From Phycisphaerae bacterium (GTDB taxonomy: Bacteria > Planctomycetota > Phycisphaerae > Phycisphaerales > UBA1924): DNA of 64,000 nucleotides. The stretch lies in the NCBI GenBank assembly GCA_016873295.1, contig VGXM01000009.1, positions 1 to 64,000 on the forward strand, given 5' to 3'. The notes below the pieces were generated by a model, which was given only the letters and a program-made list of their open reading frames with translations, did not search any database and was not told the origin of the DNA. This document shows positions 15,350-40,008 of this stretch, piece by piece (position 1 is the stretch's first letter; every line of letters starts with the position of its first letter). Both the position numbers and the translations under genes were made by a program.

Positions 15350-16315
15350 ATGACGAGCGTGCGGACATTCATGGGCATGGCGGGGCTGGCGGTGGCGGCC
15401 GCGGCGGCGCCGGCGCAGCACGCGATCGACTTCGGCTCGCGGGCCGTGGACGGCACGCGCGCCTTCACGACGCACCGGATGGACTCGTGCGAGCCCGTGC
15501 GGCGTGATTCCGGGTTCCACGTGACCAGCCACGGGCTCCGCGGCAGCGCGTCGTTCTACGGCTCCAGGAGCCGCCTGAACATCGGCCTCAACACGGGGAT
15601 CTGCGACAGCCTGCTCTACCCGCGGTGCTCGACGCGGACGTCGTACGTGTGCCACCCGGTGGGGTGCGGGTGCGGCGTGTGCCGACCCGTGCATCGAAGG
15701 CCGGTCGTGGTCTGCGACGATCCGTGGCCCGTGTACTCGACGTCGTACGCGTCGATCGTGACGGCGCCCGTGGTGACGCAGCCCGTGATCTACTCGCCCC
15801 CGGCGGTGGTGGTGCAGCCGGTGCAGGTCGCCGCGCCCCAACCGCCCGCCCCCGTGCCCGTCGACCCCACCACGCCCCTCGAGGCCGGGAAGGACGCCCT
15901 CCGCCGCGGCAACGCCGACCGCGCCGTCCGCTCGCTCAAGGAGCACCTGCGCGACCCGGCCCACGACCGCGACGGCGACTCGCAGCGGCTGCTGGCGCTC
16001 GCGCTCCTCAGCGCCAACCGCGCCGACGAGGCGGCCCTGATGATCCGCAAGGCCTACCGCACCGACGTGGGCCTGGTCGAACTGCCCTTCGACCCCGACC
16101 TCCTCGGCGACGACGACCGCAGGATCCGGGCCCTGACGGTGCGGGCGGTGGAGTTCGCCAACCGCGAGCGATCGGCCGAGGCGTGGCTCATGGTCGCGGT
16201 GCTCTTGCACGCCCAGGACCGCATCCCCCTGGCCCGGACGGTGGTGGAGCGGGCCATCGAGGCGGGCCTGGAGCGCCAGATCGGCGACCCGATGCTGGAC
16301 GCGCTGGGGCGGTAG
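15350..16315 (+). CDS. Exported Cys/Pro-rich protein with TPR-like C-terminal half
   Basis: A 321-residue protein with a signal peptide (MTSVRTFMGMAGLAVAAAAA, probably cleaved after APA). Residues about 60-120 are rich in Ser, Tyr and Cys and include the cluster CHPVGCGCGVCRPVH. A Val/Pro-rich linker follows (residues 135-180). From about 183 there is a helical TPR-like domain (ALRRGNADRAVRSLKEHL, RLLALALLSANRADEAALM). This last part matches the preceding gene's C-terminal half in order and spacing. A ribosome site AAGGAAGGA precedes the ATG. Function unknown. A palindromic element begins about 20 bases after its stop. Confidence 0.7.
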   Translation: MTSVRTFMGMAGLAVAAAAAPAQHAIDFGSRAVDGTRAFTTHRMDSCEPVRRDSGFHVTSHGLRGSASFYGSRSRLNIGLNTGICDSLLYPRCSTRTSYVCHPVGCGCGVCRPVHRRPVVVCDDPWPVYSTSYASIVTAPVVTQPVIYSPPAVVVQPVQVAAPQPPAPVPVDPTTPLEAGKDALRRGNADRAVRSLKEHLRDPAHDRDGDSQRLLALALLSANRADEAALMIRKAYRTDVGLVELPFDPDLLGDDDRRIRALTVRAVEFANRERSAEAWLMVAVLLHAQDRIPLARTVVERAIEAGLERQIGDPMLDALGR

Positions 16316-16337
16316 GCCCGATCGGACCTGGTGGCGT

Positions 16338-17098
16338 GAGTCGGAAGAACGCGCCCAAAGGCGCCGGCGGGCGCTGCGGCCGCCACGGGCGATCCGCCCG
16401 GCGGTCGCCCGTGCCGCCTTGCTCCCGACACCCGACCCGCACGGGTCATCGGGCGAAGCGCCCGATGACCCGTGACAGGAGACCTGCTCATAGATGGCAC
16501 TCGACCACCGTGCCACGACTGTTCGGCTCGGCGAACAGTCGTGCTCTCCCCGCCGGCACGACTGTGCCCCGAGCGGCACGACTGTGCCCCGCCGGCACGA
16601 CTGTGCCCAGAGCGGCACAGTCGTGGCACGCGACCACCGTGCCACGACTGTTCGGCTCGGCGAACAGTCGTGCTCTCCCCGCCGGCACGACTGTGCCCAG
16701 AGCGGCACAGTCGTGGCACGCGACCACCGTGCCACGACTGTTCGGCTCGGCGAACAGTCGTGCTCTTCCCGCCGGCACGACTGTGCCCCGCCGGCACGAC
16801 TGTGCCCAGAGCGGCACAGTCGTGGCACGCGACCACCGTGCCACGACTGTTCGGCTCGGCGAACAGTCGTGCTCTCCCCGCCGGCACGACTGTGCCCCGA
16901 GCGGCACGACTGTGCCCCGCCGGCACGACTGTGCCCCGAGCGGCACAGTCGTGGCACGCGACCACCGTGCCACGACTGTTCGGCTCGGCGAACAGTCGTG
17001 CTCTTCCCGTCGGCACGACTGTGCCCCGCCGGCACGACTGTGCCCAGAGCGGCACAGTCGTGGCACCCGGGACGTATCCGTCCGCGGACTTCCGACAC
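16338..17098. repeat. Composite palindromic element 1 with five nested hairpin units
   Basis: The element is bounded by short inverted repeats: GAGTCGGAAG (16338-16347) and CTTCCGACAC (17089-17098). Inside are an imperfect hairpin (16383-16412), a perfect hairpin with two 16-base arms CACGGGTCATCGGGCG and a 3-base loop (16440-16474), then five tandem units at 16510-16629, 16639-16719, 16729-16828, 16838-16957 and 16967-17066. The units are separated by the same 9-base spacer (GCGACCACC). Each unit runs from GTGCCACGACTGT to its reverse complement. Each contains a hairpin with 12-base arms (CACGACTGTTCG, loop GCTCGG) and 3, 1, 2, 3 and 2 copies respectively of a roughly 20-base subunit with CACGACTGT. 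No gene is credible here although several frames stay open. Confidence 0.9.
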
Positions 17099-17266
17099 AC
17101 GCCGCGAGCTCGCCATGCCGGCCGACCGCCGGTGGGCGTGGCTCGGGGTGAGGCCGCGGCCTATCCTTGCCTCCCCCAGCCGGGCGTCCGGCCGGGCACA
17201 ACCGAGAACCGCAAGCACTACCGGGTCCGCCGCCCCGATTGGCCGGGGCGGACGATGGGGCCGGGT

Positions 17267-17275
17267 GGGAGGTGA
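17267..17275 (+). promoter_or_regulatory. Ribosome binding site of rplK deciding a GTG start
   Basis: GGGAGGTGA lies 6 bases before the GTG at 17282 and is the strongest Shine-Dalgarno in the cluster. The 168 bases between the palindromic element and this site presumably contain the rplK promoter, but I could not identify it with confidence. Confidence 0.75.
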
Positions 17276-17281
17276 CGACCG

Positions 17282-17710
17282 GTGGCCAAGAAGGAAATCA
17301 CGAACGTCTTCAAGGTCATGGCGCCCGGGGGGTCGGCGACGCCGGCCCCGCCGCTGGGACCCGTGCTGGGCTCCAAGGGCGTCAACCCGGGTCAGTTCAT
17401 CCAGAAGTTCAACGCCGCCACCGCCCAGTTCAAGGGCAAGATCGTGCAGGCGGTGGTCACGGTCTGGAGCGACAAGAGCTTCGAGATCGAGATCAAGAGC
17501 TCGCCCGCGTCGGTCCTGATCAAGGAGGCGGCGGGGATCGAGACCGGGTCGGGCGTGCCCAACAAGAACAAGGTGGGCAAGATCACCAAGGCCCAGGTGA
17601 AGAAGATCGCCGAGGCCAAGGTCAAGGACCTCAACGCCGGCTCGGTCGAGGCGGCGATGCGGGTCATCGAAGGCACCGCCCGGTCCATGGGCGTGACGGT
17701 GGAGGGCTGA
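17282..17710 (+). CDS. rplK: 50S ribosomal protein L11
   Basis: A 142-residue protein with the complete L11 pattern. The N-terminal domain has KVMAPGGSATPAPPLGPVLG and GVNPGQFIQKFN. The flexible linker is followed by the rRNA-binding C-terminal domain with KVGKITKAQVKKIAEAKVKD and a closing GTARSMGVTVEG. L11 binds 23S rRNA at the GTPase-associated centre next to L10 and L7/L12, which are encoded just downstream. It is the first gene of the L11-L1-L10-L7/L12-rpoBC cluster; secE and nusG, which usually precede it, are absent from the window. L1 starts 3 bases after its stop. Confidence 0.98.
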   Translation: MAKKEITNVFKVMAPGGSATPAPPLGPVLGSKGVNPGQFIQKFNAATAQFKGKIVQAVVTVWSDKSFEIEIKSSPASVLIKEAAGIETGSGVPNKNKVGKITKAQVKKIAEAKVKDLNAGSVEAAMRVIEGTARSMGVTVEG

Positions 17711-31735: not shown

Positions 31736-31929
31736 GAAGAACCCTCCCGGCCCCGTGTCGCGCGGGGCCGCTCGCGCCCGATGAGACACCGGGCGCCGGT
31801 CGCGGCGGCTCGCGGAAGGACGTCGGCGGGCGGGCCCATGGGCCACGGACCGGCCGACCCCTGGCCCATCCGGGCCCGCGAGGGTCGCCGAACTACGGCC
31901 CGTTCCCGCCACGCGGCGGGGAGCCGTAC

Positions 31930-32133
31930 GTCGTCGGCAGGTCTTCCGGCTCGGGGCTCCGCGACACCGGCCTTCCCGACCGCCTCGGTCAGTGGCCCCG
32001 CGGGCCGCGGCGAACTCGCCACGGCCCCGGCTGCGGGTGTCGCGGATTCGCCCCTCACGGCGGCGCGTCCGCGGTGGATTTGCACCACGCTTCCCGTCTT
32101 CGCCCAGGCTCGTCGCCCGGGACCGACAACGAC
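31930..32133 (-). promoter_or_regulatory. Cobalamin (B12) riboswitch aptamer
   Basis: Read on the minus strand, the conserved pieces of the cobalamin aptamer occur in the right order. GGGAAGCGTGGTGCAAATCC (32095-32076) is the GGGAA/GGTG/TCC block. GACGCGCCGCCGTGAGGGG follows. GCCACTGACC and GTCGGGAAGGCC come next (around 31995-31969), and the diagnostic 3' block is GAGCCGGAAGACCTGCC (31952-31936). The layout resembles actinobacterial examples. A short pairing between the ends (GTCGT... with CCGACGAC) can close the aptamer. About 195 nt between the aptamer and the start codon at 31735 contain further hairpins, for example CCCGCC/GGCGGG, that could act as the expression platform. Binding of B12 would be expected to switch the downstream operon off. 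Confidence 0.92.
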
Positions 32134-32136
32134 ACC

Positions 32137-32164
32137 AATGTAGCGACCGCTCGCCCCCAGTCAA
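32137..32164 (-). promoter_or_regulatory. Promoter of the riboswitch-controlled operon
   Basis: On the minus strand TTGACT (32164-32159) and TACATT (32142-32137) are 16 bases apart. The predicted start of transcription, near 32130, coincides with the beginning of the aptamer. Confidence 0.7.
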
Positions 32165-32377
32165 GCCGACCCCCGGGCCACGACCGTGCCGCCCCGGGCA
32201 CGGCCGTCTCCACGGGAAGCACGACTGTCGCCCAAGACCCAGGCCGTCGTGGCAAGGTCTCGTCAGCGCCCGCGTCCCCTTGCCCTGTCGAGCCGACCTT
32301 CCACCCCCCGCACCGGGGCCTACAACCCGTCCTTGCCCCACGACTTGCCCTCCATCGCCCAGCGCCTCCCCCTCACA

Positions 32378-36344: not shown

Positions 36345-37012
36345 CCGTGCGGCCGCTCGAGGCCCGTCCTGGCGCCGGCACGGGCGATCCGCAAGGCGGC
36401 TCGCCCGTGGCACCCGGCGTGCCACGACTGTTCGGCTCGGCGAACAGTCGTGCGTCCGTCGCCCGACACCGCGTCCCTCGCCGGACACGACTGTGCCCCG
36501 AGCGGCACAGTCGTGGCACCCGGCCTGTCCTACCCGATCGCGTGCCACGACTGTTCGGCTCGGCGAACAGTCGTGCGTCCCTCGCCCGACACTGCTTCCC
36601 TCAGCGGACACTGCGTCCCTCGCCGGACACGACTGTGCCCCGAGCGGCACAGTCGTGGCACCCGGCCTGTCCTACCCGATCGCGTGCCACGACTGTTCGG
36701 CTCGGCGAACAGTCGTGCGTCCCTCGCCCGACACTGCTTCCCTCAGCGGACACTGCGTCCCTCGCCGGACACGACTGTGCCCCGAGCGGCACAGTCGTGG
36801 CACCCGGCCTGTCCTACCCGATCGCGTGCCACGACTGTTCGGCTCGGCGAACAGTCGTGCGTCCCTCGCCCGACACTGCTTCCCTCAGCGGACACCGCGT
36901 CCCTCGCAGGACACGACTGTGCCCCGAGCGGCACAGTCGTGGCACCCGGCGCTTCGCCCGATGACCCGTGCGGCTGTTCGAGGCCGGTCCGGACGCCGGC
37001 ACGGGCGATCCG
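36345..37012. repeat. Composite palindromic element 2 with four tandem hairpin units
   Basis: Four units at 36420-36520, 36543-36662, 36685-36804 and 36827-36946 are separated by an identical 22-base spacer (CCGGCCTGTCCTACCCGATC then GC), giving a 142-base period for the last copies. As in element 1, each unit runs from GTGCCACGACTGT to its reverse complement and contains the hairpin CACGACTGTTCG/CGAACAGTCGTG. On both sides of the array are copies of the flanking module (CACGGGCGATCCGC..., GGCTGTTCGAGGCCGGTC) in the inverted orientation relative to element 3. I found no clear terminal inverted repeats. No gene is credible here. Confidence 0.88.
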
Positions 37013-37339: not shown

Positions 37340-39784
<2,445 letters not shown>

Positions 39785-39790
39785 TGGCGC

Positions 39791-39966
39791 GAGTCGGAAG
39801 AACGTGTACCAAGGCGCCGGCGGACGCCGCGGGTGCCACGGGCGAGCCGCCTTGCGGCTCGCCCGTGCCGGTGTCCGGACCGGCCTCGAACAGCCGCACG
39901 GGTCATCGGGCGAAGCGCCCGATGACCCGTGGCACCCGGAGCGCTCCGTCCACGGACTTCCGACTC
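39791..39966. repeat. Palindromic element 3 (minimal form with terminal inverted repeats)
   Basis: A 176-base element bounded by GAGTCGGAAG (39791-39800) and its exact reverse complement CTTCCGACTC (39957-39966). It contains two perfect hairpins: 14-base arms CACGGGCGAGCCGC with loop CTT (39837-39867), and 16-base arms CACGGGTCATCGGGCG with loop AAG (39897-39931). The second hairpin is identical to one in element 1. Unlike elements 1 and 2 it carries no CACGACTGT array, so it looks like the basic form into which the array is inserted or amplified. Confidence 0.88.
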
Positions 39967-40008
39967 TCTAGGCGCCCGCCGTCGCGGCGTGATGGACCAT
40001 CAGGGAAG

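Follow-up and report, generated by a model that had tools for sequence, protein, structure and literature searches.

REPs are among the commonest bacterial repeats, and their paired forms (BIME or REPIN) and ordered tandem clusters have been described (PMC3116915, PMC3733652). In Pseudomonas fluorescens SBW25 the dispersed unit is an intergenic inverted pair of REPs that occurs both as single copies and as ordered tandem clusters with flanking sequence, and the RAYTs of that strain are flanked by REPINs of their own (PMC3116915). The GTAG and CGTC superfamilies (Di Nocera 2013, PMC3733652) comprise short tagged palindromes, often organised as dimers and mosaics and mostly found between co-directional and convergent genes, and Planctomycetes are among the hosts named there. 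Tags on record are GTAG, GT[AG]G and CGTC, with CnGA in class 3 (PMC3733652, PMC6006769). In TnpA_REP/RAYT systems (Quentin 2018, PMC6006769; for recognition determinants, PMC8266576) an HUH-Y1 RAYT with a YIHxNP motif is encoded by a gene flanked by inverted REPs, with the tag immediately 5' of the hairpin (PMC6006769). In E. coli TnpA_REP, the residues W94, Q95, E100, H101 and R104 lie in the region that contacts GTAG (PMC6006769), and for one RAYT a change of tag alters the dinucleotide that is cleaved (PMC8266576). Co-evolution of tag, hairpin and transposase has been put to biochemical test in GTAG systems only.

The locus described here lies in the window (the whole 64,000-nt stretch of DNA that was analysed), which belongs to a 3.14-Mb draft genome in 104 contigs whose gene content suggests a place in the Planctomycetota. 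A tandem array of five GTGC...GCAC units occupies 16510..17066 on the + strand; according to the gene call, it is placed upstream of rplK (17282-17710) and has a TPR-like gene (15350-16315) on its other side. The units, all on the + strand, measure 120 nt (16510..16629), 81 nt (16639..16719), 100 nt (16729..16828), 120 nt (16838..16957) and 100 nt (16967..17066) and contain 3, 1, 2, 3 and 2 copies, respectively, of the sub-repeat CACGACTGTGCC. All five start with GTGCCACGACTGT and end with ACAGTCGTGGCAC, and all four linkers read GCGACCACC. This unit parse bears out the first-pass annotation, which had described five closed units of these lengths and sub-repeat numbers, differing by one sub-repeat: because sub-repeats come in two lengths, 19 nt (...CCCGCCGG) and 20 nt (...CCCGAGCGG), unit lengths change in steps of 19 and 20. 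A repeat search also finds larger duplicated blocks within the array, with 16480-16698 matching 16808-17026 at 95%. Folding gives z = -6.5 for unit 2, the minimal form in the array, as DNA and z = -6.9 for unit 1 as RNA. The array matches no Rfam covariance model at the gathering threshold, and a scan of 16310-17300 found neither an intrinsic terminator nor a promoter. An integron attC or CRISPR array was rejected on reading the sequence, which has no cassettes and no even-length variable spacers between units. A second CACGACTGT array, with four REPIN units and longer spacers, is present at 36423..36941 (+ strand; hairpin search and unit parse). Elsewhere in the window, a lone CACGACTGT opens a diverged hairpin (CACGACTGTCGCC...GGCCGTCGTGGCA) at 32220-32260, just after a cobalamin riboswitch at 31919-32142 (- strand).

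Each unit is built as GTGC-A-spacer-B-GCAC, that is, a tagged hairpin that is present twice with the second copy inverted. The two 30-nt hairpins have a common outer arm, CACGACTGT/ACAGTCGTG. Hairpin A (CACGACTGTTCG-GCTCGG-CGAACAGTCGTG, with 12-base arms and GTGC before it) is found in every unit, as had been noted in the first-pass annotation, which missed the second such hairpin at the other end of the unit. This hairpin, B, also has 12-base arms and reads CACGACTGTGCC-cagagc/ccgagc-GGCACAGTCGTG; across units its opposite strand reads CACGACTGTGCC-GCTC[GT]G-GGCACAGTCGTG, again preceded by GTGC. In unit 2, A lies at 16643..16672 (+ strand, 5' tag GTGC) and B at 16686..16715 (- strand, GTGC CACGACTGTGCC GCTCTG GGCACAGTCGTG); in the remaining units A starts at 16514, 16733, 16842 and 16971 and B at 16596, 16795, 16924 and 17033. 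Loops read GCTCGG on one strand and CCGAGC on the other, and since the reverse complement of the B loop is of the A loop type, the unit is an inverted pair. The extra sub-repeats are partial copies of the left arm of hairpin B.

The same design recurs throughout the genome, where 229 perfect CACGACTGT-N12-ACAGTCGTG hairpins are spread over many contigs. The reversed pattern, used as a control, has no match in the genome, and this difference, together with the fold of the 81-nt unit, shows that the family is not a product of chance. GTGC precedes nearly every forward hairpin and GCAC follows the inverted one. The inner three stem positions, which the search pattern leaves free, are fully paired in 195 of 201 fetched hairpins and occur in several alternative pairings, such as TCG/CGA and GCC/GGC. 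Every one of the 43 sites examined is intergenic by a heuristic codon-model gene call, with neighbouring genes co-directional at 17 sites, convergent at 10 and divergent at only 3. Minimal units (GTGC-A-13 nt-B-GCAC, about 81 nt) are found singly at many places, and at many loci arrays vary in the number of both units and 19/20-nt sub-repeats, so that the two levels of copy-number variation reported in the first-pass annotation are real. Linkers are identical inside one array and mostly unlike between arrays, a pattern that fits local tandem duplication; units and their linkers probably grew in number by slippage or recombination. Exact copy numbers are uncertain because the assembly is a draft and 11 of about 41 arrays reach a contig end. 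Contigs C8, C14, C17, C18, C20, C26, C31, C46, C53 and C61 have arrays at their ends, so the repeats themselves probably break up the assembly.

Outside this genome the exact sequence all but disappears. The first-pass annotation had regarded absence from the rest of the genome and from relatives as grounds for rejecting its reading; the genome-wide search gives the opposite result on the former, and on the latter the exact sequence is nearly absent, as expected for species-specific REPs, while the design is widespread. None of 60 relatives contains an exact CACGACTGT-N12-ACAGTCGTG hairpin. When two mismatches are allowed, 163 family genomes yield six related hairpins in one genome (G063) and one in another (G086), each version with two compensating stem changes, and G063 keeps the GTGC-pair-GCAC layout. 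Among 84,980 species genomes there are two matches, both in unrelated organisms and lacking the GTGC foot, which is about chance level since 18 fixed bases should be met about 4 times in 257 billion bases. Viral contigs contain no match that would point to a phage origin.

High copy number, dispersal, extragenic placement, a 5' tetranucleotide and inverted pairing are the general marks of REPs and REPINs, and all are present here. We therefore consider it very probable that the array is a tandem REPIN cluster, made of GTGC-tagged inverted REP pairs that are non-autonomous, were probably moved by a RAYT and may then have multiplied locally. The REPIN reading is supported by the inverted arrangement of the hairpin pairs, by 229 copies against none for the control, by compensated stems and intergenic sites, and by a gene-neighbour pattern like that published for REPs (PMC3733652). 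The view that no described repeat family has this design, put forward in the first-pass annotation, cannot be upheld: inverted pairs of the BIME/REPIN kind, tandem clusters included, have been published (PMC3116915, PMC3733652). As in SBW25, an inverted pair is dispersed between genes, singly and in ordered clusters with flanking sequence, but the tag is GTGC rather than GTAG, arrays reach dozens of half-sites, partial 19/20-nt copies occur internally and no RAYT adjoins the CACGACTGT family (PMC3116915). It resembles the superfamilies of PMC3733652 in being a short tagged palindrome that is often paired or mosaic, yet its perfect stems are longer, at 11-13 bp or more, and its loop is, in this class, a 6-nt GC[TC][TC][GT]G. 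E. coli BIMEs likewise alternate inverted REPs with spacers in a mosaic structure and have a RAYT in the genome, whereas tag, stem and loop differ and the stem here has no bulge. On its tag the family belongs neither to the canonical GTAG/GT[AG]G superfamily nor to the CGTC superfamily, and class 3 TnpA_Y1 elements, with their CnGA foot, are set aside on the tag and on the YIHxNP motif of the RAYTs. GTGC does not appear in the searchable text (figures and supplements lying outside the search) of PMC3733652, PMC2817692, PMC8266576 or PMC6006769, the first of which describes no GTGC superfamily in its text, and a literature search never returned REPIN, RAYT and GTGC together in one paper. The kind of element is known, and the GTGC tag and its RAYT branch provisionally look like an undescribed variant.

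Which enzyme might move these pairs? The genome has seven Y1_Tnp matches, of which five are IS200-like or truncated and two are RAYTs with the YIHxNP motif rather than the class 3 Y....Q. Against NCBIfam NF047646 the RAYT on contig C54 scores 107.6 bits and that on C50 79.7 bits (cut-off 80); the former resembles E. coli TnpA_REP (PDB 4er8, E 4.9e-11). On both sides of the C50 RAYT we find GTGCCACGGGCGA-GCTCGG-TCGCCCGTG ... CACGGGTCATCGGGCG-AAG-CRCCCGATGACCCGTGGCAC or a near variant, while GTGC-CACCGATGTCG-GCTCTG-CGACATCGGTG and variants border the C54 RAYT. Both sets of flanking hairpins belong to families that are siblings of the one in the window: the tag is identical, and the loop identical or nearly so, which argues for RAYT-dependent mobility of the window hairpin. 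Pointing the other way, neither RAYT has a CACGACTGT hairpin beside it in this incomplete assembly, and the RAYT of G063 does not have the CACGACTAT hairpins of that genome at its flanks. A further point against is that the C54 RAYT has its own family of only 12 copies, on contigs C54 and C71. No CACGACTGT hairpin adjoins the IS200-like Y1 genes on C1, C16 and C49. In the gene on C1 (L009:2159-2519) a Y...Q..HH motif recalls subclass 1.2, a subclass reported to lack REPs; some 80 nt away is a tandem array of about ten CTTCGCCCC AAC GGGGCGATG hairpins with a period of about 32 nt. At L013:482-957, where a contig ends, a truncated Y1 gene adjoins an array of ACCAGGGGTG CGGAGC CACCCCTGGT hairpins, a further repeat family.

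Relatives provide a broader view of the association between tag and transposase. RAYTs of this clade occur in 82 of 163 family genomes, and we sampled 69 RAYT loci, treating hairpins with a stem of at least 10 within 450 nt of the gene as adjacent. GTGC stands at the 5' foot of 140 of 165 RAYT-adjacent hairpins, at 46 of the 53 loci with any hairpin, compared with 13 of 47 hairpins more than 600 nt from a RAYT and a background of 7 of 44 in the window outside its two arrays; GTAG tags only 4 of the 165. Tags tend to face outward, forward hairpins predominating upstream (48 versus 24) and inverted ones downstream (48 versus 20). RAYTs and hairpins diverge together: the distances between proteins and between hairpins are correlated (Mantel r = 0.495, n = 46), a value reached in none of 5000 permutations, the largest permuted r being 0.212. 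Both the enrichment and the correlation support mobilisation by RAYTs. Loops of the form GC[TC][TC][GT]G accompany GGGFDRN RAYTs at 18 of 23 loci and GGGYDRN or GGGHDRN RAYTs at 3 of 18 (Fisher p = 1.3e-4, kinship not corrected for), and the GCTCGG loop of the window fits the class associated with GGGFDRN.

The array does not stand alone at its locus. Directly upstream, at 16384-16474, is a degenerate pair of the C50 type, BIME-1, made up of a degenerate hairpin of the C50 RAYT-flank family (CACGGGCGA...TCGCCCGTG, 16384..16413, + strand) and a second hairpin (CACGGGTCATCGGGCG AAG CGCCCGATGACCCGTG, 16440..16474, + strand) with 112 copies genome-wide. Pair and array are enclosed by an imperfect inverted repeat, GTGGCGTGAGTCGGAAG at 16331..16347 (+ strand) and, at 17089..17105 (- strand), an inverted copy with 2 mismatches. 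The range originally annotated, 16338-17098, accordingly holds the array and is wider than it, taking in the two other hairpins and most of this inverted end pair. Some arrays lie inside such a composite, with ends GTGGCGYGAGTCGGAAG and its inverse plus the C50-type pair, and others have neither. An unoccupied counterpart, with ends and BIME-1 pair and no CACGACTGT REPIN, is found at 39784..39968 (+ strand), with a gene for an S9 peptidase on one side and a tRNA gene on the other. Here GTGGCACCCG runs straight into GAGCGCTCCG (window 39932), and at an occupied site (L062) the two are parted by CC-GTGCCACGACTGT...GTGGCAC-CCG. Occupied and empty versions of one composite site support movement of the pair. 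Of the 14 composite sites occupied by a CACGACTGT pair, however, 13 have a common left junction and may be descendants of a single insertion, which weakens the argument. Also to be set against the REPIN reading is a tag other than the canonical GTAG. Tandem BIME-1 composites with a spacing of about 191 nt and up to five or six copies occur on contigs C13, C18, C23, C43 and C45.

The composite raises the question of whether the hairpins are themselves what moves. If the larger element with its 17-nt inverted repeats were a MITE mobilised by another transposase, the hairpins would be mere passengers. It is in keeping with such an element that the ends at 16331 and 17089 are imperfect inverted copies that recur around BIME-1 elsewhere, and that composites occur in tandem. 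However, many CACGACTGT arrays (for example L030-L033, L036, L039, L040, L051, L054, L066 and L067) have neither the ends nor a complete BIME-1 within 350 nt, no target-site duplication is evident by eye, and the tie of RAYTs to GTGC hairpins would be left unexplained, all of which makes a MITE improbable. Somewhat less improbable, if still unlikely, is a structure that the host has selected at gene ends, be it a terminator, an mRNA-stabilising hairpin or a binding site for a protein or gyrase. Intergenic sites with few in divergent gaps, the very stable fold and the position upstream of rplK would all suit such a role, and yet a tolerated mobile element would show the same placement, 16310-17300 has no intrinsic-terminator match, a copy may be a single pair or anything up to a long array, and the sequence is limited to one species. 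Host selection and a mobile REPIN are, moreover, compatible rather than exclusive.

Might the repeats have arisen without any mobile component? A simple satellite produced by slippage would account for the shared linkers, partial sub-repeats and repeated unit blocks within an array. But slippage cannot disperse single minimal REPINs over many contigs and varied contexts, which rules it out as the whole explanation, and the A and B stems differ at compensated positions; we give this scenario very little credence. Least credible of all is an artefact of assembly. The assembly is admittedly fragmented and 11 of about 41 arrays end where a contig does, but unique genes flank the window array on both sides, dozens of independent copies have different spacers and linkers, and many other genomes contain the same design.

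Assuming instead that the array is a REPIN cluster moved by a RAYT, the following course of events can be envisaged. A RAYT, as an HUH/Y1 single-strand transposase, would recognise the GTGC tag and hairpin in single-stranded DNA such as the lagging-strand template, cut beside the tagged hairpin and carry the GTGC...GCAC pair to other gaps between genes, by which the pair would have spread over one genome. After insertion, slippage or unequal recombination across hairpins might have multiplied units and their 19/20-nt parts on the spot.

How might a RAYT come to read GTGC? Guides on record are GT[AG]G for class 2 and CnGA for class 3. RAYTs of the present clade have PEHVH and a near-universal WQxGGG[FY]DRN motif. 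In alignment, E. coli WEH-AIRN falls opposite WQ-SGGGFDRN-VRD, the insertion replacing the GTAG-reading segment at the position of E100/H101. Judged from the alignment, this insertion is consistent with an altered tag, without being proof of one. We would give about even weight to the proposition that GTGC is a distinct guide, and that one planctomycete RAYT branch re-coded its REP tag (GTAG/GTGG to GTGC) along with the cleavage dinucleotide while its guide-reading loop was rebuilt (WEH to WQxGGG[FY]DRN). If the guide-pairing rule of PMC8266576 holds, the re-coded dinucleotide would be GC or GA instead of CT; the composition of 3' flanks beside hairpins reveals no conserved dinucleotide. With RAYTs in half of the family genomes, GTGC and two loop classes that track two protein motifs, there is a natural series in which re-coding of the guide can be tested, and a rule for spotting such repeats in genomes of uncultured planctomycete-like bacteria, where assemblies break on them. 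In a phylum-wide sample (L142-L170), RAYT-adjacent hairpins have GTGG or GTGC depending on lineage (29 and 19 of 61 hairpins, respectively), and several RAYTs have GPGYDRN instead of GGGYDRN.
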